From an uncultured Kiloniellales bacterium (GTDB lineage: Bacteria; Pseudomonadota; Alphaproteobacteria; Kiloniellales; JAKSDN01), in contig CAMYKD010000008.1 of assembly GCA_947258885.1 (NCBI GenBank), forward strand, positions 1 through 54,140: a DNA stretch of 54,140 nucleotides, given 5' to 3'. Positions 2,394 through 23,687 of this stretch are shown piece after piece. Below the pieces are notes generated by a model. The model saw nothing but the letters and a program-made list of their open reading frames with translations. It did no database searches and was not told the DNA's origin. Each line of letters begins with the position of its first letter. Positions within the stretch are counted from its first letter, which is position 1. Made by a program: the position numbers and the translations under genes.

Positions 2394-2459
2394 AGCTATG
2401 GGTTCTGTCAAGGCAGTACCCTCATAGCGGTCCGTTCCAACGGCAAACGGTGAACGGCA

Positions 2460-4199
2460 ATGGGTGCGAAGGCCGACCAGACAAACAGCCTATCGATCGC
2501 GCTGACAGGAAGCGGCGGTGCCGGTGTCATAACCGCCGGCAACATGTTGCTGGAGGCTGCTGCCAAGGCCGGCTGCTATGGACTCTTCGCGCGCTCCTCG
2601 GGGCCGCAGATTCGGGGCGGCGAGGCGGCGGCGATGGTCCGTTTGGCGAACGAGCCGGTTGTCGCGCCCGGCGACGTCTTCGATATCCTGATCGCCATCG
2701 ACTGGCACAACATAGACCGCTTCGCCGTCGAGCTGCCGCTTTCGACTGTGAGCTTGGTCATCGCCGACCCGTCCCAAGGGGCGGTGCCCGAGGTCATCGC
2801 GGCGCGCGGCGCGCGTATCGCCGAGCTGCCCCTGAGGGACCTGGCCAAGACGGTTGCCAAGGGCCGGCCCAACATGATCGCGCTCGGCGCCGTTGCGGGC
2901 CTGATCGGACTGCCGGGCGAGGTCGCCGACGACGTCATGGCGCGGACCTTGAAGAAGCGCGGCGACGAGGCTCTCGCCGCCAGCCGCGACGCCTTCGCCC
3001 TTGGTGTCGAGGCGGCGGGGGCGATGTCCTTCGACGGCCCCGATCTGTGGACCCGGGCCGCCACCCGGGAGCGCTGGATCATCAACGGCAACGAGGCGGC
3101 GGGCCTGGGCGCCGTCCGCGGCGGCGTCCGCTTCGTCGCGGCCTATCCGATCACGCCGGCCACCGACCTGCTGGAATGGATGGCGCTCAATCTGCAAAGG
3201 CTCGGCGGCGCACTGGTCCAGGCCGAGGACGAGCTCGCCTCGATCAACATGATCATCGGCGCATCCTATGGCGGAACGCCGGCGCTGACGGCGACCTCGG
3301 GGCCCGGCCTGGCGCTCATGTCGGAGTCGCTCGGCTTGGCCGTCGCCGCCGAGGTGCCGGTCGTCGTCGTCGACGTCATGCGCGGCGGCCCCTCGACCGG
3401 CATCCCGACCAAATCGGAGCAGAGCGACCTCAACATCGCCCTGTTCGGCCTGCACGGCGACGCGCCGCATCTGGTCCTGGCACCGACCTCGATCAGCGAC
3501 TGCGTGTTCACCACGCAATGGGCCGTCAGCCTTGCAGAAACGCTGCAGAGCCCGGCGATCGTGCTGTCGGACCAGCTGCTTGGACAGACGCGCGCGATCG
3601 TCGACCGCCCGGCCGACATTGCCTTCGTTTCGCAGCGGGTGACCGCGGAAGCCGCCACGGTCGAGGATTTTCGGCGTTATGGTCTTGCCGCGGGAGGGAT
3701 TTCGGCGATGGCGATCCCCGGATCTCCGGGGCGTCAGTACACCGCCGACGGCCTCGAGCACGACGAGTCGGGCCTGCCCTCGAGCCGGGCCGGCGATCAC
3801 GTCTCCCAGCTCGATAAACGCGCCGCCAAGCTCGATGGATTCGACTACGGCAACCACTGGGCCGAGATCGAGGGCGACGGCAGGCTCGCGGTCGTCGCCT
3901 GGGGTTCGTCGACCGGCGCCGTGCGCGAGGCCTTGGCCCGGCTCGGCAGCCGCGGTCACGAGTTCCGCCTGGTGTCGCCCCGCCTCTTGTCGCCGCCGCC
4001 GCCGGCCCGCTGGGCCGAGGCCCTGGAGGGTGTCGAACGCGCGCTGGTCGTCGAACTCAATCACTCGGCACAGTTCTACCGGTATCTGAAGGGATATTGC
4101 GACCCGCCCTGCCCCGTCGACGTCTACCATCGCCCGGGACCGCTGCCCCTGCGCGCCGGTGAGCTGGTTGCCGAGATCGAGAAGTGGAGCCGATCATGA
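2460..4199 (+). CDS. korA: 2-oxoacid:ferredoxin oxidoreductase, fused gamma-alpha subunit
   Basis: 579 residues. The first ~190 form the gamma domain (GSGGAG at 17-22, then ARSSGPQIRGGEAAA), followed by the alpha domains with YPITPATD near residue 229 and the conserved RGGPSTGIPTKSEQSDL segment. With KorB it oxidises a 2-oxoacid, probably 2-oxoglutarate, with CoA and TPP, and reduces ferredoxin. In Thauera and Magnetospirillum a korAB pair beside the benzoyl-CoA reductase genes recharges the ferredoxin used for ring reduction, and the same role is inferred here. It overlaps korB by ATGA. The substrate (2-oxoglutarate or another 2-oxoacid) is inferred from context. Confidence 0.88.
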   Translation: MGAKADQTNSLSIALTGSGGAGVITAGNMLLEAAAKAGCYGLFARSSGPQIRGGEAAAMVRLANEPVVAPGDVFDILIAIDWHNIDRFAVELPLSTVSLVIADPSQGAVPEVIAARGARIAELPLRDLAKTVAKGRPNMIALGAVAGLIGLPGEVADDVMARTLKKRGDEALAASRDAFALGVEAAGAMSFDGPDLWTRAATRERWIINGNEAAGLGAVRGGVRFVAAYPITPATDLLEWMALNLQRLGGALVQAEDELASINMIIGASYGGTPALTATSGPGLALMSESLGLAVAAEVPVVVVDVMRGGPSTGIPTKSEQSDLNIALFGLHGDAPHLVLAPTSISDCVFTTQWAVSLAETLQSPAIVLSDQLLGQTRAIVDRPADIAFVSQRVTAEAATVEDFRRYGLAAGGISAMAIPGSPGRQYTADGLEHDESGLPSSRAGDHVSQLDKRAAKLDGFDYGNHWAEIEGDGRLAVVAWGSSTGAVREALARLGSRGHEFRLVSPRLLSPPPPARWAEALEGVERALVVELNHSAQFYRYLKGYCDPPCPVDVYHRPGPLPLRAGELVAEIEKWSRS

Positions 4200-5035
4200 C
4201 GAGCAGTCCCGCGCCGATGCCTGGCCTCACCGCCCGCGACTACAAGTCCGAGGTCAAGCCGGTCTGGTGCCCCGGCTGCGGCGACTACTCGGTTCTTTTG
4301 GCGATCACCAAGGCCTTGGCCGAGCTCAAGCTGCCGCCCGAGAAGGTTTCGGTGATATCCGGGATCGGCTGCTCGTCCCGCATGCCCGCCTACATGAACT
4401 CCTATGGATTCCACGGCGTGCACGGCCGCGCGGTGGCGCTCGCCACCGGGCTCAAGCTGTCGCGCCCGGACCTGACGGTACTGGTGACCGGCGGCGACGG
4501 CGACGGATTCTCCATCGGCGGCAATCATTTCCTCCACGCCTGCCGGCGCAACGTCGACCTCACCTATATCGTCATGGACAACCGGGTCTACGGCATGACC
4601 AAGGGTCAGCCCTCGCCGACGACGGAACCGGACTGGGACAGCGCGTTGTCCCCGGGCGGTACCGGGCTTCGGCCGTTCAATCCGCTGGTGATTGCACTTG
4701 CCTCGGGTGCCAACTTCATCGCCCGGGGATTTTCGGGAGACTCCAACGGCACGGCCAGGCTGATTGTCGAGGCGATCAAGACGCCAGGATTTTCTTTTGT
4801 CGAGATCCTAAGCCCCTGCATTACGTTCCGCCAAGACCAGCGCGGGTGGAAGAAGATCGTGCGCCCCGCACCCGTCGATCCGACCGAAGATATCGGCCGC
4901 GCGGCGCGGCGCCTGATGACGGACGACGGCTTCAATCTCGGTATACTCTACGTAGGTGGGCGAGAACCCTATCGACTTCAGCTGGAGGGTGGCGAGCGGG
5001 AACCGGCGGAGCTGGAATCGCAGTTCGTCGTCTGA
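4196..5035 (+). CDS. korB: 2-oxoacid:ferredoxin oxidoreductase beta subunit
   Basis: 279 residues. WCPGCGDY supplies Cys25 and Cys28, and GIGCSSR supplies Cys59, ligands of the single [4Fe-4S] cluster. The TPP/Mg motif GDGDGFSIGGNH is near residue 100, followed by YIVMDNRVYGMTKGQ. The chosen ATG overlaps the korA stop and has GGAG six bases upstream; a GTG four codons earlier is possible. The C-terminal ~35 residues are acidic and less conserved. It forms the catalytic heterodimer with KorA. Confidence 0.88.
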   Translation: MTSSPAPMPGLTARDYKSEVKPVWCPGCGDYSVLLAITKALAELKLPPEKVSVISGIGCSSRMPAYMNSYGFHGVHGRAVALATGLKLSRPDLTVLVTGGDGDGFSIGGNHFLHACRRNVDLTYIVMDNRVYGMTKGQPSPTTEPDWDSALSPGGTGLRPFNPLVIALASGANFIARGFSGDSNGTARLIVEAIKTPGFSFVEILSPCITFRQDQRGWKKIVRPAPVDPTEDIGRAARRLMTDDGFNLGILYVGGREPYRLQLEGGEREPAELESQFVV

Positions 5036-5072
5036 CGGCGCGACGCCGGCGTGCGGAGAAAGGGACTATCGG

Positions 5073-5594
5073 GTGACTAATCGAATTACCATCGAATCAG
5101 TGGTCGATCTCCTGGCCCACGCCAAGGCCATGGAAACCGAAGCCCTGGAGCGATATCTGGACCTGGCCGAGCAGATGGAGGTGCACCATAACCCTGAGGT
5201 CGCCGCGCTGTTCCGCAAGATGGCCCGGGTCGAGGGCCTGCACGTGGAAAAGATCCTCGAAAAGGCCGGCGACAAGACCCTGCCGCACATTCCGCCTTGG
5301 GAGTATCAGTGGTTGGAAAGCGAGTCCGCGGAAGCGATCACGGTCGAGGACGCGCATTACCTCATGACCCCCCATCACGCTCTTACCTTGGCGCTCCGCG
5401 CGGAGCGGCGTGCCTTCGATTTCTATTCGCGGGTCGTTGCAACGGCGGCGCCGGGAGAGGTCTTGGAGCTGGCGCGCGAGCTGATGGAAGAGGAAGGCGA
5501 GCACGTCGGGTTGATCGAACAGTGGCTCGCCAAGGTGCCGGAGCCCGACGAGGACTGGGCCGAGGATCCCGACCCTCCCCTGTTGCAGGAATAG
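5073..5594 (+). CDS. Ferritin-like diiron / rubrerythrin-type protein
   Basis: 173 residues, mostly helical, with two pairs of Glu/ExxH segments: METEALERYLDLAEQME, RVEGLHVEKI, LRAERRAFDFYSRV and MEEEGEHVGLIEQW. This is the four-helix ferritin-like pattern with two ExxH motifs as diiron ligands. A GTG start preceded by AGGGA seven bases upstream is preferred over longer forms that would overlap korB. It is probably co-transcribed with korAB (37-base gap). An inferred role is protecting the oxygen-sensitive ferredoxin/OFOR chemistry from peroxide or O2, or storing iron; there is no C-terminal rubredoxin domain, so it is not a full rubrerythrin. Confidence 0.75.
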   Translation: MTNRITIESVVDLLAHAKAMETEALERYLDLAEQMEVHHNPEVAALFRKMARVEGLHVEKILEKAGDKTLPHIPPWEYQWLESESAEAITVEDAHYLMTPHHALTLALRAERRAFDFYSRVVATAAPGEVLELARELMEEEGEHVGLIEQWLAKVPEPDEDWAEDPDPPLLQE

Positions 5595-5762
5595 GCCGCT
5601 CGCCACTCCGCGGGCACCTCCGTCGTCGTTTTCCGGTCCATCCTTTCGTTCCTTATCGTTGGCAGCAGGATGGCCCCGCCTTTGTCGGGTCTGTCCGTGC
5701 GCCGCGGTGGAACCCTGGGCCGGGCAAGTTCCCAAAAACCCTATGGACACCGGCATAAAAAC

Positions 5763-5774
5763 GTATTACGGTAC
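5763..5774 (+). promoter_or_regulatory. GTAWTWNRGTAC element upstream of had operon
   Basis: GTATTACGGTAC within an AT-rich stretch (5757-5790) 98 bases before had; TATTAC could be the -10. It matches the elements at 2356, 14734 and 27298. The rest of the 277-base gap from 5595 holds no gene that I can support. Confidence 0.6.
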
Positions 5775-5871
5775 TTAATTATTGTTTTGCCTGTCTAACG
5801 TGATCGGCCGGGAGCGCCGCAACGCCTTGAAAGGGGTGAAGATAGCGAAACGCCGTTAGGGAGAGCACAGA

Positions 5872-6939
5872 ATGACAGTGTCTGCTCACCGTTGGACGAT
5901 GAACGCGGTCGGCGAACCGATGACCCGGATGGACTTCTCGCCGGCGGCGCCCAGCGACGACGAGGTCACCATCGAGATCGCCGGCTGCGGCGTCTGCCAT
6001 ACGGATCTCGGCTACCTCTACGACGGGGTGCGCACCAACCACGAGCTTCCCTTGACCCTGGGTCACGAAATATCGGGAACCGTCGTTGCCGCGGGGACGG
6101 ACGCCGAAGCCTGGAACGCCAAGAGCGTGATTGTCTCCGCCGTCATCCCCTGCGGCCAGTGCGACCTCTGCGCGCGCGGCAAGGGCACGATCTGCCGCGG
6201 CCAGAAGATGCCCGGCAACGACATCCACGGCGGCTTCGCCTCGCACATCACGGTACCGGCGAGGGGGCTTTGCGAGGTGGACACGGCGCGTCTTGCCGCC
6301 CGGGGGATGAGCCTGGCCGATGTCTCGGTCGTGGCCGACGCCGTCACCACGCCCTACCAGGCCGCGATGCAGGCGGAGGTCGCGCCCGGCAGCCTCGCCG
6401 TCGTGATCGGCGTCGGCGGCGTCGGCGGCTATGCGGCCCAGGTCTGCAGCGCCCTTGGCGCCACGGTGGTCGCCGTCGACGTGGACGACGCCAAGCTGGA
6501 GACGATTGCCCGCTACGGCGCGTCCGCCACCTTCAACGCCCGCGAGATCTCGGGCCGCGACCTCAAGAAGGCGGTCGGCGGCTTCGCGAAGGAGAACGGT
6601 CTTCCCGCCACCGAATGGTTCATCTTCGAATGCTCCGGCAGCGCGGCCGGTCAACAGACCGCCTTCGGGCTGCTGGTCCACGGCGCCACCCTGAGCGTCG
6701 TCGGCTTCACCATGGACAAGCTCGAGATGCGGCTCTCCAACCTCATGGCCTTTCACGCCCGGGCCTTGGGCAACTGGGGCTGCACGCCCGACCTCTATCC
6801 CGGCGCCTTGGACCTGGTGCTCGACGGCAAGGTCGAAGTGCTTGCCTTCGTCGAGCAGCACCCGCTGGAGGAGATCAACCGCATTTTCGAAGCCGCCCAC
6901 GCCCATAAGCTGACACGGCGCGCCATCCTGGTGCCCTGA
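5872..6939 (+). CDS. had: 6-hydroxycyclohex-1-ene-1-carbonyl-CoA dehydrogenase
   Basis: 355-residue Zn-dependent medium-chain dehydrogenase. Cys42 (GCGVCHTD) and His65-Glu66 are at the catalytic zinc, Cys94, Cys97, Cys100 and Cys108 at the structural zinc, and [12 protein letters not shown] is the NAD-binding turn. It oxidises the hydroxy product of the dienoyl-CoA hydratase to 6-oxocyclohex-1-ene-1-carbonyl-CoA. The order had-oah-dch-bcr follows the Thauera/Magnetospirillum type of benzoyl-CoA pathway, not the Rhodopseudomonas badHI type. It has its own promoter region with the shared 12-mer. Confidence 0.9.
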
Positions 6940-6974
6940 CACCGATCGAACGCGCTTTCGAGGAGTGACACCGA

Positions 6975-8120
6975 ATGCCTGATCCAGACACCGTCATCGC
7001 CAGCTCCAAGCCGGAGACCCTGGTCGACCACAACCTGGTCCCCGAGGCGGAAACCGTCGTCCCCGGCATCTTGTACGAAAAGCGGGCCGCCAGGCGGCCC
7101 GACGGGTCGGTGGCGGAGGGCCTCTACAACGCCTGGATCACGCTGGATAATCCCAAGCAATACAACGCCTACACCACGGAGATGGTGAAGGGGGCCATCC
7201 TCGCCTTCCGCCGCGCCTCGGTGGCCCGCGAGGTCAACGCCGTCGTCTTTACCGGGGCCGGCGACAAGGCCTTCTGCACCGGCGGCAACACCAAGGAATA
7301 CGCCGAGTACTACGCGGGCAATCCGCAGGAGTACCGGCAGTACATGCGGCTCTTCAACGACATGGTCTCCGCCATCTTCGGCTGCGACAAGCCGGTGATC
7401 TGCCGGGTCAACGGCATGCGCATCGGCGGCGGGCAGGAGATCGGCATGGCCTGCGACTTCTCGGTCGCCCAGGACCTGGCCAACTTCGGACAGGCGGGCC
7501 CGAAGCACGGCTCGGCCGCGATCGGTGGCTCGACGGACTTCCTGCCGGTCATGATCGGCTGCGAGCAGGCCATGGTCTCGGGCACGCTCTGCGAGCCCTT
7601 TTCGGCCCACAAGGCCTATCGGCTCGGCATCGTCTCCGGCATCGTTCCGGCGTTGAAGGTGGACGGCGCATTCGTTCCCAATCCGACCGTCGTCACCGAC
7701 CGCATGTTCGACGAATTCGGGCGCATCGTGCACGGCGAGTTCAAGGCCGGCGCCGAGTTCAAGGCCGGGCGGGAGACGATCAAGGCGGGCGAGACCGACC
7801 TGAGCCAGCTCGACGAGGCGGTCGAGGCCCTCTGCGCGAAGCTCCTCGGGACCTTCCCCGAGTGCATGACCAAGAGCCTGGAGGAGCTGCGCAAGCCCAA
7901 GCTCGAGGCCTGGAACAAGAACAAGGAGAACTCGCGCTCGTGGCTCGCCCTCAACATGATGAACGAGGCGCGCACCGGCTTCCGGGCCTTCAACGAGGGC
8001 ACCCGGGAAACCGGCCGCGAGATCGACTTCGTCAAGCTGCGCCAGGCGCTCGCCGTCGGTACGCCCTGGACGCCCGAGCTGATCGAGAGCCTGATGCCCG
8101 GAGCCGGCCGCGATGACTGA
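6975..8120 (+). CDS. oah: 6-oxocyclohex-1-ene-1-carbonyl-CoA hydrolase
   Basis: 381-residue crotonase-superfamily protein with an N-terminal extension, then GLYNAWITLDNPKQYNAYTTEMV and the oxyanion-hole segments FTGAGDKAFCTGGNTKEYAEYYAG and RVNGMRIGGGQEIGMACDFSVAQD. It adds water twice to the cyclic enone and opens the ring hydrolytically to 3-hydroxypimelyl-CoA. The length and the TGGNTKEYAEYY signature fit Oah. It starts 35 bases after had and overlaps dch by eight bases. Confidence 0.92.
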   Translation: MPDPDTVIASSKPETLVDHNLVPEAETVVPGILYEKRAARRPDGSVAEGLYNAWITLDNPKQYNAYTTEMVKGAILAFRRASVAREVNAVVFTGAGDKAFCTGGNTKEYAEYYAGNPQEYRQYMRLFNDMVSAIFGCDKPVICRVNGMRIGGGQEIGMACDFSVAQDLANFGQAGPKHGSAAIGGSTDFLPVMIGCEQAMVSGTLCEPFSAHKAYRLGIVSGIVPALKVDGAFVPNPTVVTDRMFDEFGRIVHGEFKAGAEFKAGRETIKAGETDLSQLDEAVEALCAKLLGTFPECMTKSLEELRKPKLEAWNKNKENSRSWLALNMMNEARTGFRAFNEGTRETGREIDFVKLRQALAVGTPWTPELIESLMPGAGRDD

Positions 8121-8883
8121 GGCGCCGCTCGAGGTCTGGCGCGAGCGCGACGGCCGGCTTCTGCGCCTGCGCCTCAACCGGCCCAAGGCGAACATCGTCG
8201 ACGCCGAGATGATCGCGGCCCTGGACGCCGCCTTTGCCGGCCTCGAAGAGAACCGGGACGCGCAGGCCGTACTGCTCGACCACGCGGGCCCGCACTTCAG
8301 CTTCGGCGCCAGTGTCGAGGAGCATCTGCCCGGCCAGTGCGCCGGCATGCTCAGGGGCCTGCACGCGCTGATCAAGCGGATGCTCGCCGCGCCGGTGCCG
8401 ATCCTGGTCGCGGTCCAGGGTCAATGCCTCGGCGGCGGCCTCGAGGTGGCCATGGCCGGGCACATGATCTTCGCCGCTCCCGACGCCATGCTCGGACAGC
8501 CGGAGATCAAGCTGGCCGTCTTTGCGCCGGCGGCGAGCTGTCTGCTGCCCCGCCTCGTCGCCCGCCAGCACGCCGAGGATATGCTCTATTCGGGGCGCAG
8601 CATCACCGGCGCGCGGGCGGCCGAGATCGGCCTCGTCCTGCAGGTGGACCCGGACCCGGAGAGCGCCGCGCTCGCCTACTTCGACGAGCACTTGGCGGGC
8701 CTTTCGGCGAGCACACTGGGCTTTGCGATCGACGCGGCGCGGGGAAGATTCCGCGACGAGATCGGCGCCGACCTGGACCGTGTCGAGGCGCTGTATCTCG
8801 AGGGTTTGATGAACACCCGAGATGCCGTCGAGGGGCTGGATGCCTTCGTCGCGAAGCGCGCCGCCAAATGGGAGCATCGCTGA
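8113..8883 (+). CDS. dch: Cyclohexa-1,5-dienecarbonyl-CoA hydratase
   Basis: 256-residue crotonase fold. FGASVEEHLPGQ and the GQCLGGGLEVAMAGHMIFAAPDAMLGQPEI segment form the CoA-ester oxyanion hole. It hydrates the dienoyl-CoA made by benzoyl-CoA reductase to 6-hydroxycyclohex-1-ene-1-carbonyl-CoA. The overlap with oah and the three-base gap to bcrC make it part of one operon. Family assignment is clear; the exact substrate follows from the pathway context. Confidence 0.9.
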   Translation: MTEAPLEVWRERDGRLLRLRLNRPKANIVDAEMIAALDAAFAGLEENRDAQAVLLDHAGPHFSFGASVEEHLPGQCAGMLRGLHALIKRMLAAPVPILVAVQGQCLGGGLEVAMAGHMIFAAPDAMLGQPEIKLAVFAPAASCLLPRLVARQHAEDMLYSGRSITGARAAEIGLVLQVDPDPESAALAYFDEHLAGLSASTLGFAIDAARGRFRDEIGADLDRVEALYLEGLMNTRDAVEGLDAFVAKRAAKWEHR

Positions 8884-8886
8884 GCC

Positions 8887-9948
8887 ATGAGGAAGGTGTC
8901 CGAGATCGTCGAATTCTGTCAGGAGCTCTGCGAGGACCTGACCTTCGCGGCCGCGCGCGAGTGGAAGGACGCCGAGCCGGGCCGCAAGGTCGTCGGCTAC
9001 ATGCCCGTCTACGTGCCGCGGGAGCTGATCCACGCGGGCGGCATGCTGCCGCTGGGAATCCTCGGCGGGGGCGACAACCTGGAGGTCATCCACGGCGACG
9101 CCTACTATCAGAGCTACATCTGCCGGATCCCGCGCTCGACCGTTGAGCTCGCCGTGACCAAGCGTCTCGATTTCGTCGACGGCATGCTGTTCCCCTCGAT
9201 CTGCGACGTCATACGCAACCTTTCGGGCATGTGGAAGATGATGTTCCCGGAGGTCTACACCCGCTATTTCGACGTGCCGCAGAACTACAAGGACGAGATC
9301 GGCGGGAACTATTACGAGCACGAGTTGATGGAGCTGAAGCAGGGGCTCGAGGGCGTCTGCGGCCGCAAGATCGGCGACGACGACCTGCGGCGCTCGATTG
9401 CGGTCTACAACGAGAACCGCCGGCTGGTGAACGCGGTCTACGATTTCCGCACCAGGGAGCCCTGGAAGGCGCCGTCCTGGGAGGTCTATCTCCTGATCCG
9501 CGCCGGCATGGTGCTGCCGGTCGAGGCGCACTCGCAGCTCATCGAGGAGTACCTCGCCGCGGCCGAGGCCGAGGACCGGCCCATGCGCGACAACTGCCGT
9601 ATCATTCTGCAGGGCTCGTTCTGCGAGCAGCCGCCCTTGAACCTGATCAAGTCCATCGAGCTCGCCGGCTGCTACATCGTCGACGACGACTACATGCTGG
9701 TCACGCGCTGGCTGCTGGAGGACGTGCCGAGCGACGGCGACCCGATCCGGAACCTGGCGCAGGCCTTCATCAAGCATTCCACGGAAACGGCGGCCAAGTA
9801 CGAACCCGACGGCGCGCGCAAGGGCAAGTACCTGGTCGACGCGGTGCGCACGCGTGCCGCCGAGGGCGTGATCTTCGCCGCGCCCAGCTTCTGCGACCCG
9901 GCGCTCGCAGGCCGGAACATTCGCCGACACCATCAAACTGTGGGGTGA
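8887..9948 (+). CDS. bcrC: Benzoyl-CoA reductase subunit C, 3' end damaged by internal deletion and frameshift
   Basis: 353 residues in the open frame. The body is typical BcrC/BadD of the 2-hydroxyacyl-CoA dehydratase D-component family: GYMPVYVPRELIHAGGMLPLGILGG, YQSYICRIPRSTVELA, then QGSFCEQPPLNLIKSIE and GVIFAAPSFCDPAL. After PAL (codon ending 9906) the frame reads into AGRNIRRHHQTVG and stops. In the +1 frame from 9911 the usual family C-terminus [14 protein letters not shown] appears, and its TGA (9953-9955) overlaps the bcrB ATG, the normal coupled arrangement. Roughly 30-35 residues expected between CDPAL and AGTFADT are absent, so about 100 bases not divisible by three appear to be missing. 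The product may be inactive or altered, or this may be an assembly error. Confidence 0.88.
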   Translation: MRKVSEIVEFCQELCEDLTFAAAREWKDAEPGRKVVGYMPVYVPRELIHAGGMLPLGILGGGDNLEVIHGDAYYQSYICRIPRSTVELAVTKRLDFVDGMLFPSICDVIRNLSGMWKMMFPEVYTRYFDVPQNYKDEIGGNYYEHELMELKQGLEGVCGRKIGDDDLRRSIAVYNENRRLVNAVYDFRTREPWKAPSWEVYLLIRAGMVLPVEAHSQLIEEYLAAAEAEDRPMRDNCRIILQGSFCEQPPLNLIKSIELAGCYIVDDDYMLVTRWLLEDVPSDGDPIRNLAQAFIKHSTETAAKYEPDGARKGKYLVDAVRTRAAEGVIFAAPSFCDPALAGRNIRRHHQTVG

Positions 9949-9951
9949 AGC

Positions 9952-11262
9952 ATGAGCACCGCAACCGAACGGGACGAGGTCGTCAAAGAGCCTTCGATGT
10001 TGAAGCAGAAGGAGATGATCGCCGACAACTACGACAGGTTGACCCGCGCCCAGGAGCTCGGCCTGAAGGTCTCGTCGACCTACGTTCCCGGCAACCTCAA
10101 CGAGCTCGTCATGTGCTTCGACATGCTCAACAACCTGCCCGAGATCAACGCGATCCAGAACGGCATGCGCAAGAAATCGGGCGGCCTGATCATGGACGCC
10201 GAGAAGATGGGCCACTCGGAGGATGTCTGCACCTACGTCAAGGCCGACATCGGCAACATGGCCAAGGGCGCGATCGCCCCGAACGGCAAGCCCATGCCGG
10301 TGCCCGACCTGCTGCTGCTCTCCTACACCGGCTGCTTCACCTTCATGAAGTGGTTCGAGTTGCTGCGCGACCAGTACGGCTGCCGCACCGTGATGCTGCA
10401 CGTCCCTTACGAGGGCGATGGCAAGATCACCCAGAACATGCGCGACTATGTCGTCAAGCAGCTGAAGGAGGAGGTGATCCCGACCTTCGAGGAGGTCTCT
10501 GGGGTCAAGTTCGACATCGATCGCCTGCGCGAATACCTGCGCAAGTCGGCCGAGGCCGAGGACAACTTCGTCTGGGTGCTCGAGAGCGCCAAGAGCAAGC
10601 CGAGCCCGATCGACGCCTATTTCGGCGGCGTCTTCTACATCGGTCCCATCTTCACCGCCTTCCGCGGCACCGACGACGCGGTCGAATACTACGAGATCCT
10701 GCGCAAGGAGATCGAGGGCCGGCTGGCGGCCGGCGAAGGGCCGGTCACGCCGGAAGGCGACATGAGCGAGGAGAAGTACCGCCTGGTCGTCGAGGGCCCG
10801 CCCAACTGGACCAGCTTCCGGGATTTCTGGAAGATGTTCTACGACGAGGGCGCCGTCGTCGTGGCCAGCACCTATACCAAGGTCGGCGGCGTCTACGACT
10901 ACGACGGCTTCCGCCACGACCCGGATAAGCCCCTGGAGAGCCTCGCCGATTACTGCCTCGGCTGCTACACCAACCGGAACCTGCCCACCAGGGTCGACAT
11001 GATCGAGAGCTATATCGACCAGTACGAGGCCGATGGCTTCCTCGTGAACTCGATCAAGAGCTGCAACAGCTTCTCGGCCGGACAGCTGATGATGATGCGC
11101 GAGGTCGAGAAGCGCACCGGAAAGCCGGCCGCCTTCATCGAGACCGATCTTGTGGACCCGCGCTACTTCTCGCCGGCCAACGTCAAGAACCGGTTGGAAA
11201 GCTACTTCCAGATGATCGAACAGAAACGGCGCGGCGGCGGCCCGCCGGCCCGGGCCGCCTGA
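9952..11262 (+). CDS. bcrB: Benzoyl-CoA reductase subunit B
   Basis: 436 residues, full length for BcrB/Bad[16 protein letters not shown] leads into the HgdB-like fold; [36 protein letters not shown] and [21 protein letters not shown] hold conserved cysteines for cluster binding. With BcrC it forms the module that binds benzoyl-CoA and carries out the two-electron ring reduction. Its ATG overlaps the original bcrC stop. No defect is visible. Confidence 0.93.
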
Positions 11263-11282
11263 CTCGGCCGGAGGAGACCGCC

Positions 11283-12599
11283 ATGAAGTGCTACATCGGC
11301 ATCGACCTCGGCTCGACCACGACGAAGGCGGTCCTCATGGACGCCGGCATGGAGGTCCTCGGGCAGGGCATCACGAATTCCCGCTCCAACTACGAGACGG
11401 CGGCCGCGGTGGCCAAGCAGGAGGCCCATATCGGCGCCCGCCTCACCCTCTTCCGCCGCGGCCTCGGCGATGCCGTTACCGGCAAGAACGCAAACGAGCT
11501 GATGGAGGACCTGGAGCTCAACATCCGCCTGGAACAGTTCCTGGAGCAGCTCGAGGACCTGCGCGCGACCTGCGCGAGCCACATCCGGAACGGCCAGGCG
11601 GGCGTGCTCGAGGCCTTGACGGAGGTGTTCGAGCGCATCAACGCCGAGGCGCCCGGGATGTTCCAGCGCGGCGCCAGGCGCAGGTCCGATTTCTTCCGGG
11701 ACATCGCGGGCTCCCGCGTCATGCACATCGGCGAGGAGGTGGCGAAGACCGCCGGCGTCTCCTTCGAAACGCTGCTCAACCTCTACGACAAGTCCATCAT
11801 CGACGTCGAGAACCGCCCGCCGGAAGGCGATATGGCGGCCAAGTACCGGCGGGCGCTGCATAGGGTGGTGGAGAGCGATCCGCACCTGAAAGTGGACGAG
11901 GCGACCGCGCAGGACGCCATGAGCAAGGCCGTCGCGCTGGAGCTGGAGGAGACCTATGTGGTCGGCACCGGTTACGGCCGGGTCACGCTGCCGTTTCCGA
12001 AGGAGCACATCCGCTCCGAAATACTCTGTCACGGCCTCGGCGCGCACATGATGTACCCCGAGACCCGCACGGTCCTCGACATCGGCGGCCAGGACACCAA
12101 GGCGATCCAGGTGGACCCGCAGGGCATCGTCGAGAACTTCCAGATGAACGACCGCTGCGCCGCCGGCTGCGGGCGCTATCTCGGCTACATCGCCGACGAG
12201 ATGAACATGGGGCTGCACGAGCTCGGCCCGATGGCCATGAAGGCCACGAAATCGGTACGCATCAACTCGACCTGCACCGTCTTTGCCGGCGCCGAGCTGC
12301 GCGACCGCCTCGCCCTGGGCGAGAAGCGCGAGGACATCCTGGCCGGTCTCCACCGCGCCATCATCCTCCGCGCCATGTCGATCATCTCGCGCTCGGGCGG
12401 GGTCACCGACGAGTTCACCTTCACCGGCGGCGTGGCCAACAACGAGGCCGCGGTCAAGGAGCTGCGCAAGCTGATTCACGAGAACTACGGCGACATCACC
12501 ATCAACATCAACCCGGCGTCCATCTACACCGGCGCCCTCGGGGCCGCCGCCTTCGCCCGGCGTGCCGTCGAGAACGGAGCGGGGGAGACGGCGCCATGA
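11283..12599 (+). CDS. bcrA: Benzoyl-CoA reductase subunit A (ATPase)
   Basis: 438 residues of the BadF/BcrA/HgdC ASKHA ATPase family. The phosphate-binding loop is [15 protein letters not shown] near the N-terminus, with [12 protein letters not shown] and [12 protein letters not shown] later. [13 protein letters not shown] contains the cysteine that helps ligate the [4Fe-4S] cluster shared with Bcr[11 protein letters not shown] follows. It couples ATP hydrolysis to electron transfer into BcrBC. It has a clear GGAGGAG ribosome site in the 20-base gap after bcrB and overlaps bcrD by ATGA. Confidence 0.93.
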
Positions 12600-13447
12600 C
12601 CATCACCGCGGGGATCGACGTCGGCACAGGCGCCGTCAAGGCCGTGATCTTCGACGTGGCCGACGGCGGCGCAGGAGAGACCAGGTGGCTTGGCCGTCAT
12701 ACCGCCAAGGTCCGGCAGCGCGACCCCTTGAAGTTGGCGCGCGAGGCCTTCGAGGCAGCCGCGGAGATTGCCGGCGTCGACCAGGACGATATCGCCTACA
12801 TCGCCACCACGGGCGACGCCGAAAGCCTGACCTTCGCCACCGGTCATTTCTACTCCATGACCACGCACGCGCGCGGCGGCATTTTTCTGGAACCCTCGGC
12901 CCGGGCCATCCTGGATATCGGTGCGCTCCACGGCCGCGCCATCATCATCGACGAGCGCGGCAAGGTGTTGGGCTACCGCATGACCTCCCAGTGCGCCTCT
13001 GGATCGGGGCAGTTCCTTGAGAACATCGCGCGGTATCTCGGCATCACGCAGGAGGAGATCGGCGAGCTCTCCAAGCAGGCGGACAACCCGGAAAAGGTCT
13101 CGTCGATCTGCGCCGTCCTGGCCGAGACCGACGTCATCAACATGGTCTCGCGTCAGATATCGGCATCGAACATTCTGAAGGGCATCCATCAGTCGATGGC
13201 GATGCGGCTGGTCAAGCTCCTGCGCGCCATCAAGGTGCGGGAGGGTACGGTCCTGATGACCGGCGGCCTCGCCCTCGACATCGGGCTCCTGGCCGCCCTC
13301 AACGAGGCGATGGCGGAGCAGAAAATCGCCGTCAAAGGCCTGAACCACCCCGATTCGATCTACGCCGGCGCAATCGGCGCCGCGATCTGGGGCGGATTCC
13401 GCCACGAGAAACTGGCGCGCCTCGGCCAGCTCGCGAAAGCATCCTAG
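12596..13447 (+). CDS. bcrD: Benzoyl-CoA reductase subunit D (ATPase)
   Basis: 283 residues, the shorter BadG/BcrD paralogue of Bcr[16 protein letters not shown] is the phosphate-binding loop, [12 protein letters not shown] the second, [18 protein letters not shown] carries the cluster cysteine, and [13 protein letters not shown] the adenosine motif. It pairs with BcrA as the ATP-driven electron activator of the complex. The ATGA overlap with bcrA indicates translational coupling. Confidence 0.93.
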
Positions 13448-13474
13448 GCGCGCGCCGATCAGGAGACCCTCTAA

Positions 13475-13720
13475 ATGGCCTTGATGATCACCGACGACTG
13501 CACCGGCTGCGATGCCTGCCTCGATCCCTGTCCCAACGACGCGATCGCTTTCGGCGATCCGATCTACGTCATCGATGCCTTCAAGTGCACCGAGTGTGTG
13601 GGGGCCGAAGACGAGCCGCAGTGCGAGCTGGTCTGTCCTGCCGACTGCATCGTGCCGAACCCGGATTTCGAGGAGAGCCGCGAAGAACTGCAGGCGAAGT
13701 ACGACGCCCTGCACAGTTGA
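13475..13720 (+). CDS. fdx: 2[4Fe-4S] ferredoxin, electron donor of benzoyl-CoA reductase
   Basis: 81 residues. Cluster I: Cys9, Cys12, Cys15, Cys19. Cluster II: Cys38, Cys41, Cys50, Cys54, with eight residues between the second and third cysteine. The long loop and the C-terminal acidic helix (PDFEESREELQAKYDAL) are features of the Allochromatium/Thauera-type low-potential ferredoxins (BadB homologues). Last gene of the had-bcr operon. It would carry electrons from KorAB to BcrAD. It abuts the convergent Rrf2 gene with no gap. Confidence 0.92.
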   Translation: MALMITDDCTGCDACLDPCPNDAIAFGDPIYVIDAFKCTECVGAEDEPQCELVCPADCIVPNPDFEESREELQAKYDALHS

Positions 13721-14158
13721 TCAGGCGTTCACGGGCTCGTTCTTGCCGGCGGCGTTGCGGTGTATCAGCTTGAGCAGCGTTGCGAGGGTGATGGACTTCA
13801 ACGTCGAGACGGCGGTCTCGTCGATCTCGTTCATGACCTGGCCGAGGGCCCGGCCGATGTCGGAGCCGTCCCCGCCTTCGGGGTGCCGGCCCGGTTTGCG
13901 TCCGATATCCTCGAACATGTGGACCACCTCGTAGAGCGTGACCCGCTTGGCGTTGCCGGAAAAACGGTAGCCGCCGCCGGCGCCGCGCATGGATTCGACC
14001 AGCCCGGCGCGAACCAGATCGCGCAGCACCTTGGCCAGGTGGTTGGCCGAGATCCCGTACTTCTCGGCAATGTCGGGGGCCGAGATCTGGCGATCCGGGT
14101 CCTGCGCCAGCTCGAGGACCGCAAAGAGCGCGCAGCGGGTTGCCTGTTGCAGTCTCAC
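13721..14158 (-). CDS. badM: Rrf2-family transcriptional regulator, BadM-like
   Basis: 145 residues. The N-terminal winged helix MRLQQATRCALFAVLELA ... ISAPDIAEKYGISANHLAKVLRDLVRAGLVESMRGAGGGYRF is the Rrf2 signature. Only one cysteine (Cys9) is present, so the three-cysteine cluster site of IscR/NsrR/RirA is missing, as expected for a ligand- or partner-sensing BadM type. In Rhodopseudomonas palustris BadM is a repressor of the benzoyl-CoA reductase operon. It is transcribed from 14 kb back towards bcr, 12 bases after the GNAT gene, starting with GTG. It is the only regulator in the aromatic part of the window, so it is the first candidate to bind the GTAWTWNRGTAC elements. Confidence 0.82.
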   Translation of the reverse strand: MRLQQATRCALFAVLELAQDPDRQISAPDIAEKYGISANHLAKVLRDLVRAGLVESMRGAGGGYRFSGNAKRVTLYEVVHMFEDIGRKPGRHPEGGDGSDIGRALGQVMNEIDETAVSTLKSITLATLLKLIHRNAAGKNEPVNA

Positions 14159-14170
14159 GGCCTCGTCCGC

Positions 14171-14662
14171 CTACCCGTGACTGCCCGCGAAACCATCGAG
14201 CGACATCTCCAACTGGATGAACGGCCCTCCCATCATCCCCTGCGAACGGAAGAAAGCCATGTTGAGCTCGTCGTCGCGGGCGAGCATGGTGCGTACCGTA
14301 TCGACGCCGCTCTCGGCCAGGCAACGGCACATGGCTTCGAAAAGCCGGCTGCCGATCTTGTTGAGGCGCGCCGCCGGGTCGACGCCGAGCGCGAAGATCC
14401 ATCCGCTGGGCGGCGAGCCGAACTCCCAGGCGCGGACCTCACCAATGATGAAGCCTATGACCCCCGAGTCCTCGCCTTCGGCGATCAGGAAGAAACGATT
14501 GGGACGCTTGCCATAGCGCTCGAACATGTCTGCCCAATAATCGGGCTTGGTCATGCCCGTGATGCGCGAATCGAGCCGGGTCACGGCAGGGACATCCGCG
14601 ACGGCCGCGGCCCGGATGACAAGATCACCGGCAAGCTCGGTCGTTCCCACCGCCTCGGGCAT
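14171..14662 (-). CDS. badL: GNAT-family N-acetyltransferase, BadL-like
   Basis: 163 residues from the ATG with GGAGGGG just upstream; a longer 183-residue form from 14722 is open but has no ribosome site. LVIRAAAVADVPAVTRLDSRITG opens the domain, and ALGVDPAARLNKIGSRLFEAM resembles the acetyl-CoA pyrophosphate loop, although the usual QGxGxG/A is changed to LNKIGSR. In Rhodopseudomonas palustris a GNAT gene (badL) also lies beside badM. It shares the segment (I/L)Dx(R/K)(I/L)TG with two other GNAT genes at 27375 and 27877. Substrate unknown: aminobenzoate or a protein lysine are both possible. Confidence 0.75.
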   Translation of the reverse strand: MPEAVGTTELAGDLVIRAAAVADVPAVTRLDSRITGMTKPDYWADMFERYGKRPNRFFLIAEGEDSGVIGFIIGEVRAWEFGSPPSGWIFALGVDPAARLNKIGSRLFEAMCRCLAESGVDTVRTMLARDDELNMAFFRSQGMMGGPFIQLEMSLDGFAGSHG

Positions 14663-14696
14663 GGCCCCTCCGTACCCCGCCGACCCTCGATCGCTC

Positions 14697-14725
14697 TTGA
14701 CAGAATGTCGCTGCTTCCGCAAAAT
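14697..14725 (+). promoter_or_regulatory. Putative boxCB promoter
   Basis: A consensus -35 TTGACA (14697-14702), 17 bases, then CAAAAT (14720-14725). The predicted start near 14732 lies at the edge of the GTAATTTGGTAC element. Confidence 0.5.
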
Positions 14726-14733
14726 GTAAATAA

Positions 14734-14745
14734 GTAATTTGGTAC
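14734..14745. promoter_or_regulatory. GTAWTWNRGTAC element between badL-like and boxC genes
   Basis: GTAATTTGGTAC in an AT-rich stretch between divergent transcription units, 84 bases before boxC and 72 before the GNAT start. Matches the elements at 2356, 5763 and 27298. Confidence 0.6.
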
Positions 14746-14828
14746 CTATTTAAGTTTTACGTCGCGCTGAACCCTGATGCCACGATCACGCATCAGGAAA
14801 ATGCCCAAGGAAGACCATCGGGAGGACA

Positions 14829-16478
14829 ATGATCGATTTCGCCACCCATCCGGACGACTACAAGCATTGGCGCCTGAAGACCGAGGGCCCGGTGGCCACG
14901 TTGATCATGGACGTCCAGGAGGACGGCGGGCTCGAGCCGGGCTACGCTCTCAAGCTCAATTCCTATGATCTCGGCGTCGACATCGAGCTCTATGACGCCG
15001 TGCAGAGGCTTCGCTTCGAGCATCCGGAGGTCCGCGCCGTGGTCATCACCTCCGGCAAGGACCGCGTCTTCTGCTCCGGCGCCAATATCACGATGCTGGG
15101 CCGGTCCAGCCACGCCCACAAGGTGAACTTCTGCAAGTTCACCAACGAGACCCGGAACGGCATCGAAGACGCCACGCGGCACTCGGGCCAGACCTACATC
15201 TGCGCCATCAACGGCACGGCCGCGGGCGGCGGCTACGAACTGGCGCTGGCCGCCGAGCACATCATTCTCATCGATGACGGGTCCAGCGCCGTCTCGCTGC
15301 CCGAGGTGCCGCTCCTGGCCGTGCTTCCCGGCACCGGCGGACTCACCCGCGTCGTCGACAAGCGCCGCGTCCGCCGGGACCGCGCCGATTTCTTCTGCAC
15401 GGTCACCGAGGGCATCAAGGGCAAGCGCGCCGTCGAATGGCGGCTGGTCGACGAGGTCGTGCCGCGCTCCAAGCTGGAGGAGACCGTGGCCGCCCGGGCG
15501 AAGCAGTTCGCCGAGCGTTCGGACCGGCCGAGCGACGCCAAGGGCATCGAGCTGACGCCCCTTGGGCGCCAGATCACGGCCGATGGCATCACCTACGACA
15601 ACGTGGCCGTTCAGCTCGACCGGGAAGGCCGGGTCGCCAGGATCAACATCGCCGGGCCCGCCGAGGCGCCGCCGCGGGATGTCGGAGCGATCCACGCTGA
15701 GGGCGCCGCCTTCTGGCCGCTGGCGCTCGCCCGCGAGCTGGACGACGCGATCCTGCACCTGCGCACCAACGAGCCCGAGCTGGGCACCTGGGTCATCTCC
15801 ACCAGCGGCGAATCCGACATGGTGGCGGCCGCCGACGAGGCGCTCGTCGCCAACGCGGACGATTGGCTGGTCCGGGAAATCACGCTTTACCTGAAGCGGG
15901 TGCTCAAGCGCCTGGACGTGACCTCGCGCAGTCTTATCGCCTTGATCGAACCGGGCAGCTGCTTCACGGGGACGCTCCTGGAGCTGGCCTTGGCGGCTGA
16001 CCGCAGCTACATGCTCGACGGTGTCCTCGACGGCGACAACCGGCCGCCGGCCACGGTCCGAGCGACCGCCATGAACTTCGGCCCCCTGCCCATGTGCAAC
16101 GACCTGACGCGCCTCGAGTCCCGGTTCCTGAACGACCCCGACCGTGTCGAAGAGCTGCGCTCGGCGATCGGCAAGGACCTGGACGCCCCTGCGGCGGACG
16201 AGCTGGGCTTGGTGACCTTCATCCCCGACGACATCGACTGGGAGGACGAGGTGCGGATCGCCATCGAGGAGCGGTCCAGCTTCTCCCCGGACTCCCTGAC
16301 GGGTATGGAGGCGAGCCTCCGATTCGCCGGACCCGAGACCCTCGAGAGCAAGATCTTCGGACGCCTGACCGCCTGGCAGAACTGGATATTCCAGCGCCCC
16401 AACGCGGTCAGCGAGGAAGGCGCCCTCAAGCGCTTCGGGACCGGCCTGAAAGCATCGTTCGACGTGAAGCGCGTCTAG
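14829..16478 (+). CDS. boxC: Benzoyl-CoA-dihydrodiol lyase (2,3-epoxybenzoyl-CoA dihydrolase)
   Basis: 549 residues, two crotonase-related halves. The first has DRVFCSGANITMLGRSSHAHKVNFCKFTNETRNG and AINGTAAGGGYELALAAEHIILIDD; the second is a degenerate repeat with CFTGTLLELALAADRSYML. Length and these segments are diagnostic of BoxC, which opens the epoxide ring of 2,3-epoxybenzoyl-CoA with loss of formate to 3,4-dehydroadipyl-CoA semialdehyde. It heads the boxC-boxB pair. It is the first step after the oxygenase in the aerobic hybrid pathway. Confidence 0.93.
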   Translation: MIDFATHPDDYKHWRLKTEGPVATLIMDVQEDGGLEPGYALKLNSYDLGVDIELYDAVQRLRFEHPEVRAVVITSGKDRVFCSGANITMLGRSSHAHKVNFCKFTNETRNGIEDATRHSGQTYICAINGTAAGGGYELALAAEHIILIDDGSSAVSLPEVPLLAVLPGTGGLTRVVDKRRVRRDRADFFCTVTEGIKGKRAVEWRLVDEVVPRSKLEETVAARAKQFAERSDRPSDAKGIELTPLGRQITADGITYDNVAVQLDREGRVARINIAGPAEAPPRDVGAIHAEGAAFWPLALARELDDAILHLRTNEPELGTWVISTSGESDMVAAADEALVANADDWLVREITLYLKRVLKRLDVTSRSLIALIEPGSCFTGTLLELALAADRSYMLDGVLDGDNRPPATVRATAMNFGPLPMCNDLTRLESRFLNDPDRVEELRSAIGKDLDAPAADELGLVTFIPDDIDWEDEVRIAIEERSSFSPDSLTGMEASLRFAGPETLESKIFGRLTAWQNWIFQRPNAVSEEGALKRFGTGLKASFDVKRV

Positions 16479-16500
16479 GATTGGGGAGCGGGCACCGAGC

Positions 16501-17916
16501 ATGAGTATCGACTATCAGGAAAGAATCCCGAACAACGTCAATCTGGCCGACGACCGGCGGCTACAGCGGGCCTTGGAGAAATGGCAGCCGGGCTACCAGC
16601 AATGGTGGGCCGAGTTGGGGCCGACCGAGAGCGCCAGCACGGACGTCTATCTGCGAACGGCGGTAAGCGTCGATCCGGGCGGCTGGGCCAACTACGGCTA
16701 TGTGCGCATGCCGGAATACCGCTGGGGTATCTTCCTGTCGCCGCCTGAGCAAGGCCGCCAGGTCAATTTCGGGGCCCACAAAGGCAAGCCGGCGTGGCAG
16801 GAGGTGCCGGGCGAGTACCGGGCCGAGCTTAGGCGCCTGATCGTGACCCAGGGCGACACCGAGCCGGCGTCGGTTGAGCAGCAGCGGCATCTCGGCCTGA
16901 CTTGCCCGTCGCTTTACGATCTGCGCAACCTGTTCCAGGTCAATGTCGAAGAGGGCCGGCACCTCTGGGCCATGGTCTACCTGCTTCACGCGCACTTCGG
17001 CCGCGACGGCCGAGAGGAGGCGGAGGCCATGCTGGAGCGCCACTCGGGCGACCCGGACAAGCCGCGCATACTTCACGCCTTCAACGAGGCGACGCCCGAC
17101 TGGCTGTCGTTCTTCATGTTCACGTTCTTCACCGACCGGGACGGAAAGTACCAATTGGCGTCGCTCGCGGAGTCTGGGCTCGACCCGCTGTCGCGCACCT
17201 GCCGTTTCATGCTGACCGAGGAAGCGCACCACATGTTCGTGGGCGAAACCGGCGTGCAAAGAGTGGTGCAGAGGGCCTGCGAGCTCATGAAGGAGCACAG
17301 GACCGACGACGTGCGCAGGTACGGCGCCATCGACCTGCCGACCATCCAAAGGTACCTGAATTTTCACTTCAGCGTGTCGGTGGACCTGTTCGGTCAGGAG
17401 CTTTCCACCAACGCCGCCAACTACTTCACCATGGGCCTCAAGGGCCGGTTTCGGGAGACGCGGATCGAGGACGACCACCTGCTGGAGAACGGCACCTACC
17501 AGGTCCCCGAGATCAGGGGCGACAAGGTGGTGTTCACCGAGCAGAGCGCGCTGACCGCCGTCAACGAGCGCCTGCGCGACGACTACATCCGCGACTGCCA
17601 ACGCGGCGTGGACAAATGGAACCGCACGATCCGCGACGCCGGCATCGACTTCGAGCTGATCTTGCCGCACCGCGCCTTCCACCGCGGTATCGGCACCTTC
17701 GCCGACATCAAGGCGACGCCGGACGGCAGGATCATCACCGAGGCGGAGTGGGATCACCATCACGCGGACTGGCTGCCCACGGAGGATGACAAGGCCCACG
17801 TGGTCTCCCTCATGAAAGCCGTAACCGAACCCGGCAAGATGGCGAGCTGGATCGCGCCGCCGGCCAAGGGCATCAACGGTCAGCCGCGAGAGTTCGAGTA
17901 CGTACGTTTCAATTGA
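16501..17916 (+). CDS. boxB: Benzoyl-CoA 2,3-epoxidase, oxygenase subunit
   Basis: 471 residues. Diiron helices are visible: FQVNVEEGRHLWAMVYLLHAHFG near residue 150 and CRFMLTEEAHHMFVGETGVQRV near residue 237. The N-terminal block NVNLADDRRLQRALEKWQPGYQQWW and the PGGWANYGYVRMPEYRWGIFL segment are BoxB hallmarks. It inserts one oxygen atom of O2 into benzoyl-CoA, using electrons from BoxA, a flavin/iron-sulfur reductase. I find no boxA or boxD (semialdehyde dehydrogenase) in the window, so they must lie elsewhere or be replaced. Confidence 0.93.
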   Translation: MSIDYQERIPNNVNLADDRRLQRALEKWQPGYQQWWAELGPTESASTDVYLRTAVSVDPGGWANYGYVRMPEYRWGIFLSPPEQGRQVNFGAHKGKPAWQEVPGEYRAELRRLIVTQGDTEPASVEQQRHLGLTCPSLYDLRNLFQVNVEEGRHLWAMVYLLHAHFGRDGREEAEAMLERHSGDPDKPRILHAFNEATPDWLSFFMFTFFTDRDGKYQLASLAESGLDPLSRTCRFMLTEEAHHMFVGETGVQRVVQRACELMKEHRTDDVRRYGAIDLPTIQRYLNFHFSVSVDLFGQELSTNAANYFTMGLKGRFRETRIEDDHLLENGTYQVPEIRGDKVVFTEQSALTAVNERLRDDYIRDCQRGVDKWNRTIRDAGIDFELILPHRAFHRGIGTFADIKATPDGRIITEAEWDHHHADWLPTEDDKAHVVSLMKAVTEPGKMASWIAPPAKGINGQPREFEYVRFN

Positions 17917-18061
17917 AGGGCGATATCGCGGGTGTTCTATCCACTGGACGCCGGCGCCGCGGAGAAGGAAAATGACGGTAAGAAAAATGTCTGGTAATTG
18001 AAGCGGTTAGAAGAATCGACCACGTGACCGCGCGGCAACAGGGGGACCGGGGGAGAAGCTC

Positions 18062-19639
<1,578 letters not shown>

Positions 19640-19675
19640 CGGAATGGATGGAAACCGGGGCGCGGAGGGGGGAGG

Positions 19676-20599
19676 ATGATCGAAAAGCTGGTGGACCTCC
19701 GCGATGCGATCGCCGAACACCTGCGCGCCGGCGACAAGGCCGTCCTGGGCGCCTGTCTGGAACCGGACGTCCCCTTTGCCGCCACCCACGAGATCATTCG
19801 CCAGGACCTTCGGGACCTGAACGTCATCGCGCCCATCTCCGATGCCTCGACGGATATGCTGATCGGCGCCGGATGCTGCACCGAGGTCACCGGCGCGTGG
19901 GTCGGCAACGTGTCGGGCGGGCTCGGCCATAACTATCGCCGGGCCTACGAGACGGCGGAACCGCACAAGCTTACGGTCCACGACCATTCCAATTTCTCCA
20001 TCGGCATGGCCTTGATGGCCGGCGCATACGGCATGCCCTATGCGCCGATGCGCTCGATCCTGGGCTCCGACATCCTGCGCTCGAACCCGGAGTTCCGCCT
20101 AGCCGAGAATCCCTTCTCCGAGGCCGCCGAGCCGGTCGTGTTGGTGCCGCCGCTCAAGCCCAATGTGGCCATTCTGCCGGTGCAGCGGGCCGACCGCTTC
20201 GGCAACCACCACCACTGGGGCAGCCGGGGCTTGGTGTTCGAGGCCGCGATGGCGGCGGAAAAGGTCATCCTGCTGGCCGACGAGATCGTCGAGCCCGAGG
20301 TCATCACCTCGGACCCGAGTCGGGTCCTTATCCCCGGCTACCTGGTGAGCGCTGTCTGCCATGTGCCCGCGGGCATGCATCCCTCCCCCATGACCGGACG
20401 GTGGCAGCGGGACAACGAGTTCTTCAACGAGTACCACCGCCAGTCCCGCAGCCGGCAGGGCTTCCTGGAATGGCTGGACGAGTGGGTGCTGAGCCTGCCC
20501 GACCACGCCGCCTACCGCGAGAAGCTGGGCGCGCGCTTGGAGCGCCTGCGGATCGTCGGCGCCGCACCGGCGGCCGAAACCAATTTCGCGGCGGCCTGA
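19676..20599 (+). CDS. CoA-transferase-like protein, subunit A (GctA/IpdA-type)
   Basis: 307 residues of the family I CoA-transferase alpha fold (glutaconate CoA-transferase GctA and the steroid-ring hydrolase IpdA). Visible: ASTDMLIGAGCCTEVTGAWVGNVSGGLGHNYRRA and LPVQRADRFGNHHHWGSRGLVFEAAMAAEKVILLADE. It lies 36 bases after the benzoate-CoA ligase with GGGGGGAGG before the ATG, and is followed by its partner. Possible roles are CoA transfer to an aromatic or dicarboxylic acid, or hydrolytic opening of a cyclic dione-CoA. The substrate is not readable. Confidence 0.75.
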   Translation: MIEKLVDLRDAIAEHLRAGDKAVLGACLEPDVPFAATHEIIRQDLRDLNVIAPISDASTDMLIGAGCCTEVTGAWVGNVSGGLGHNYRRAYETAEPHKLTVHDHSNFSIGMALMAGAYGMPYAPMRSILGSDILRSNPEFRLAENPFSEAAEPVVLVPPLKPNVAILPVQRADRFGNHHHWGSRGLVFEAAMAAEKVILLADEIVEPEVITSDPSRVLIPGYLVSAVCHVPAGMHPSPMTGRWQRDNEFFNEYHRQSRSRQGFLEWLDEWVLSLPDHAAYREKLGARLERLRIVGAAPAAETNFAAA

Positions 20600-20603
20600 G
20601 GCG

Positions 20604-21362: not shown

Positions 21363-21490
21363 CCCGCATGAGATGACAGAAGCCCCAGGTTTCGCATAGC
21401 ATTTCGGAAAGGCTTGACGGGGCTTGCCGACAAAACAAGAGCGAAACCGCCAAACCCGCTGGGAGACTAATGGACAAGGGAGATGCGACA

Positions 21491-22702: not shown

Positions 22703-22807
22703 CGGAAAGCGGTTTCCCAAGTCCCCATGCCGCCGGTCCCGCCGGGGGCATGGGGGCCGGCTGCTTTGTCGTCGTCCCGTCATTGAGCAATCCGCTGCAC
22801 CCGCGCC

Positions 22808-23674: not shown

Positions 23675-23687
23675 GCGAGCCGCCGCC

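Follow-up and report, generated by a model that had tools for sequence, protein, structure and literature searches.

How should a benzoyl-CoA reductase operon be read when the gene for one of its subunits leaves its frame close to the end, and the usual ending of the family still stands legible in another frame? The question arises in a 54,140-nt stretch of DNA from an uncultured Kiloniellales bacterium, referred to here as the window. A sequence-only reading had proposed three answers: a reductase that functions with a shortened C subunit, an anaerobic route only just lost with the box route kept, or an assembly that collapsed at this place. The answer that we favour, with reasonable but far from complete confidence, is that the window carries a class I (BCR-type) operon with a recent 101-nt loss-of-function deletion in bcrC. 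The weights that we attach to this reading and to that of an artefact are judgements and not computed odds.

The bcrC frame and its surroundings

The operon for the BCR-type anaerobic benzoyl-CoA pathway occupies 5872-13447 with all genes on the forward strand, in the order had, oah, dch, bcrC, bcrB, bcrA, bcrD. The open frame of bcrC (8887-9948, +; 353 aa) is normal through residue 340, including the SFCDPAL motif (C336-DPAL), and then runs on as AGRNIRRHHQTVG; its product comprises 340 normal residues and 13 unrelated ones. The stop is now the TGA at 9946-9948, 3 nt ahead of the bcrB ATG at 9952. In the +1 frame, GCC at 9911 opens the 14-residue ending of the family (AGTF...; 9911-9955 with its stop, +), which is also found in the sister genomes; this ending closes with a TGA at 9953-9955 that overlaps the bcrB ATG. 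The coordinates and the reading of both frames given earlier are confirmed by the translation, and the estimate of about 100 missing bases, not a multiple of three, can be made exact: alignment with two congeneric genomes, G001 (locus L099) and G002 (L100), leaves a single gap of exactly 101 nt, or 33 codons and 2 bases, after position 9906 (junction 9906-9907, +).

Both sisters, which are 93-97% identical to the window here, are whole at this site. The bcrC of G001 (L002, L099; L005) is intact, its open frame encoding 390 aa; the contig of G002 (L004, L100) begins within bcrC, yet spans the site of the deletion and is intact there. Set against these close relatives, the loss is frame-breaking, as is asked of a pseudogene. 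The aligned stretches (2411-17728 against G001, 9553-25218 against G002) contain further indels of 3 nt in an oxidoreductase gene and of 18 nt near the end of an Rrf2-type gene (−), the rest being intergenic by the lists of open reading frames, and the 101-nt gap is the sole frame-breaking coding indel found in them.

The gene is recognizable in every other respect. It passes the TIGR02263 cut-off (603.1 bits against 421.15), but it covers just profile positions 3-342 of 380 and falls short of full length, the C-terminus being missing from the frame. With an intact BcrC, such as that of G001, it shares the operon order, the invariant cysteines and the coupling to bcrB, and residues 1-340 are 93% identical to those of L005, whereas residues 341-389 are deleted or out of frame. 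Judged by its sequence, this is a bcrC gene by descent, but its predicted protein is incomplete as a BcrC.

The remainder of the operon is intact, as the earlier reading held: each of the six other genes covers its NCBIfam model from the first position to the last, and none shows a frame-breaking indel in comparison with the sisters. They are had, encoding 6-hydroxycyclohex-1-ene-1-carbonyl-CoA dehydrogenase (5872-6939, +; TIGR03201, 1-349 of 349); oah, 6-oxocyclohex-1-ene-1-carbonyl-CoA hydratase (6975-8120, +; TIGR03200, 1-360 of 360); dch, cyclohexa-1,5-dienecarbonyl-CoA hydratase (8113-8883, +; TIGR03189, 1-251 of 251); and bcrB (9952-11262, +; TIGR02260, 1-413 of 413), bcrA (11283-12599, +; TIGR02259, 1-432 of 432) and bcrD (12596-13447, +; TIGR02261, 1-262 of 262), the three genes with which bcrC shares the operon. 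With 3 nt between the new bcrC stop and the start codon of bcrB, the translation of bcrB is probably unharmed.

Upstream of the operon lies a 2-oxoacid:acceptor oxidoreductase pair (2460-5035), followed by a gene for a rubrerythrin-domain protein (PF02915; 4956-5594), which thus stands beside the operon of an oxygen-sensitive reductase; its frame overlaps the preceding gene, and its start is therefore uncertain. Between this gene and had, the window contains 100 nt (5614-5713) that are absent from G001. An Rrf2-family regulator gene (13721-14158, −; TIGR00738, 107.5 bits) is located between the bcr and box genes. Its product could respond to Fe-S or redox state and regulate either set, and its 3' end differs by 18 nt and more from those of the sisters.

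Downstream, at 14829-19639, are boxC, boxB and a gene of the benzoate-CoA ligase family; the first two, at 14829-17916, span the whole of their NCBIfam models, and the ligase covers positions 2-506 of 508. The box route had been described as kept, and to the extent of these three genes it is. In none of the three genomes, this one, G001 and G002, however, does a boxA (TIGR03224) reach the NCBIfam cut-off; the best scores are 41.8, 41 and 27.3 bits against a required 459.2. BoxB may depend on a different reductase, or the boxA gene may be divergent or unassembled.

The genome assembly (4.91 Mb in 236 contigs, 97.3% complete) holds one bcrC and no second copy. Searched with the missing DNA, it returned 43 matches, two of which are the flanks of the junction (9866-9906 and 9907-10005), while the best of the other 41 reached E 0.0065 over 20 bases; a query with the missing tail peptide matched only 9899-9952. 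The lack of an intact copy elsewhere, another mark of a pseudogene, thus holds within an assembly that is 97.3% complete.

Origin of the gap: organism or assembly

Is the DNA missing from the organism, or from its assembled genome? The main alternative to a real deletion is that bcrC is intact in the organism and that the consensus reflects a chimeric read, a gap closed wrongly or the allele of a minor strain. We regard this as a serious possibility, though a less probable one. The deletion is seen only in the assembly consensus, which counts against a real loss, and the genome is spread over 236 contigs and is probably a metagenome assembly, judging from the sister L005, which is a MAG. The lesion also stands alone in an operon on which selection appears undisturbed. 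Upstream of the lesion, bcrC has a dN/dS of 0.097 against G001, compared with 0.061 for bcrB, 0.183 for bcrA and 0.069 for bcrD (pairs found by blastn). When amino-acid changes are polarised by the majority of up to four outgroup loci, two of those in bcrC fall on the branch of the window, seven on that of the sister and two are ambiguous; L100 covers 117 bcrC codons, and korA, korB, boxC and boxB were without an outgroup. The ratio of bcrA is the highest (0.183, 0.212), yet only 3 changes fall on the window branch against 11 on the other, and had (9 against 5) and dch (8 against 5) show slightly more changes on the window branch than on the sister's. Relaxed selection, a further mark of a pseudogene, was thus found neither in bcrC upstream of the lesion nor in the other bcr genes, as expected if the event was very recent. 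The absence of decay in the gene and its operon implies that the lesion is recent or absent from the organism; it fits an intact gene in the organism equally well and to that extent counts against a real loss.

The structure of the junction bears on both accounts. Its position is unambiguous: it cannot slide by even one base, and its ends share no base. There is consequently no repeat for an assembler to collapse, and collapse between direct repeats is rejected; of the earlier suggestion of an assembly collapse, what survives is the possibility of some other read or assembly artefact. The same absence of microhomology counts against a real deletion, deletions without any microhomology not being the commonest kind. 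The deleted stretch is among the regions whose 25-mers are more widely shared between species (404 of 15,224 windows are as high or higher, a measure biased by the uneven length of the compared loci around bcrC), which likewise counts against a real deletion and is in favour of a mistaken assembly; stretches in bcrA, bcrB and oah, however, are shared more widely still and are undamaged. Nor do the flanks speak for a mixture, since the window matches the sisters about equally well before and after the junction. They belong to one lineage by this measure, and a chimera of two species is unsupported.

The deletion is bracketed by an inverted repeat, which could form a stem of 10 bp with a 2-nt bulge. 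Such a stem could favour a polymerase jump in the library, as an artefact would have it, but it could favour a real deletion equally. A hairpin-guided deletion was not upheld as an explanation: stems this good or better form at 401 of 15,179 positions in L099 and 336 of 15,629 in L100, that is at 2-3% of positions, and the test is post hoc. A two-step origin by way of a second GCGCTC in the sister sequence, read by eye, is possible and less simple.

Set beside frameshifted bacterial pseudogenes (PMC11017572), the bcrC lesion likewise consists of one frame-breaking change in an otherwise normal gene, with no feature to distinguish it from them, whether their origin is real or technical; for it as for them, the two kinds of cause have to be separated. 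It is an ordinary frameshifting deletion, a further example of a well-known kind. A literature search on benzoyl-CoA reductase and on bcrC pseudogenes or frameshifts, judged by titles and the beginnings of abstracts, yielded nothing on a broken bcrC.

The lost C-terminal segment

Could the reductase work with its 353-residue BcrC? Such a protein is very unlikely to be functional, because the missing part is one of the best conserved and covers a helix, the last strand and the last helix. In 40 intact sequences, chosen by the analyst from 63 loci with a complete frame found by script and aligned for the models, the lost region (341-389) has 24 invariant positions out of 49, compared with 103 out of 340 upstream. 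Residues 361-386 alone have 22 of 26 positions invariant, next to a maximum of 23 for any stretch of that length, reached from residue 60, and YAENSGQMQPIRE, which lies in the lost segment, is invariant in these 40 sequences at 12 of its 13 positions.

Neither does a short form occur naturally where we looked. The earlier reading had put the usual distance between CDPAL and the ending at 30-35 residues; among 83 loci (L002-L084), made up of the best 80 of 257 relatives and three further loci, 81 have a distance of precisely 35. L002 and L005, and L003 and L010, are probably the same records, leaving 79 distinct loci. The remaining two loci, L049 and L063, have short tails because they are cut by contig ends. 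In an even sample across the class, 15 of 385 genomes match at the strict threshold of E 1e-80 or better; the window's own match stops at query residue 344 of 389, while the other 14 reach 387-389. A shared short C-terminus, which would have spoken for an active truncated enzyme, was therefore found neither in the best 80 of 257 relatives and the three added loci nor among the 14 class-wide genomes.

A structure predicted for an intact relative (mean pLDDT 75.7) places a helix at 338-352, a strand at 356-359 and a helix at 372-387 in the lost region, with a loop below pLDDT 50 at 363-370. Its fold is shared over nearly the whole length with MbdN of 3-methylbenzoyl-CoA reductase (9g87_B; Z 39.7, rmsd 2.8, 364 aligned) and BzdN (8s02_B; Z 33.7, rmsd 3.1, 361 aligned), although sequence identity over the structurally aligned residues is only 30% and 22%, and it also resembles 2-hydroxyisocaproyl-CoA dehydratase (3o3m_D; Z 36.4, rmsd 2.9, 360 aligned). 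For the window protein, the model preserves the fold elsewhere (9gai_B; Z 35.5, rmsd 2.6, 334 aligned) but lacks the C-terminal strand and helix that MbdN (9g87/9gai) and BzdN (8s02) have, and its last three blocks drop to pLDDT 48, 47 and 31.

According to the consulted part of the BzdN study (PMC11971306), Cys327 is one of the six cluster ligands, and the N-terminal end of helix 327-343 forms part of the cluster cavity. HMMER aligns this cysteine with BcrC Cys336, which the window bcrC retains; the break follows four residues later. In the same alignment with the L005 BcrC, the BzdN ligand cysteines 73, 100 and 327 correspond to Cys79, 106 and 336, and the other ligands, 36, 263 and 293, to P40, M270 and E300 (position read by hand). 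BcrC has invariant cysteines of its own in the 40 intact sequences, C246 and C262, and BCR-type enzymes may hold a cluster different from that of BzdN.

We propose that the 101-nt deletion breaks BcrC just after this predicted ligand position, so that the mutant subunit would keep Cys336 but be deprived of most of the helix starting there and of the final strand and helix of the C-terminal alpha/beta domain, with 13 unrelated residues gained. Such a subunit should fail at the cluster cavity or in its pairing with BcrB. There are strong grounds to infer that the deletion kills the BcrC subunit.

A working truncated enzyme has in its favour the retained ligand cysteine, the purifying selection on upstream bcrC and its partner genes, and a fold modelled largely as before. 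The loss of an invariant stretch, the absence of short relatives in the samples above and a new tail modelled with very low confidence weigh so heavily on the other side that we consider the first of the earlier answers highly improbable. That the enzyme should remain active, perhaps through a changed cluster or electron path, in spite of a C subunit without the last strand, the last helix and YAENSGQMQPIRE, is scarcely to be expected. Programmed or accidental frameshifting would restore the 14-residue ending, which is indeed readable in the +1 frame to its own stop, but we give it almost no credence: even a perfect shift still omits about 34 residues, YAENSGQMQPIRE included, and the 81 relatives whose C-terminus is complete (from the best 80 of 257 and the three added loci) all do without one.

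A recent deletion in bcrC and its consequences

A recent loss-of-function deletion therefore remains the best supported reading, and of the earlier answers the one that fits best is a route that has just been lost, the word 'just' agreeing with the undisturbed dN/dS. We infer that the deletion is present in living DNA, that the protein is dead and that the event was recent; the loss in the living population is a presumed one.

Whether real or an artefact, the gap leaves knowledge of the enzyme itself unchanged. If it is an artefact, it shows that losses of this type in assembled genomes need to be followed into the reads. Reads are needed in any case before the bcrC deletion can count as a loss in nature. 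The operon would still pass as complete in a family search, the broken protein scoring 603 bits against a cut-off of 421. If the deletion is real, benzoyl-CoA reduction through this operon would stop: BcrB, BcrA and BcrD could still be made, and the predicted operon would yield these subunits but no working reductase. It would then represent a fresh null mutation that separates possession of the bcr operon from the ability to reduce benzoyl-CoA, in a lineage equipped with aerobic box genes as well.
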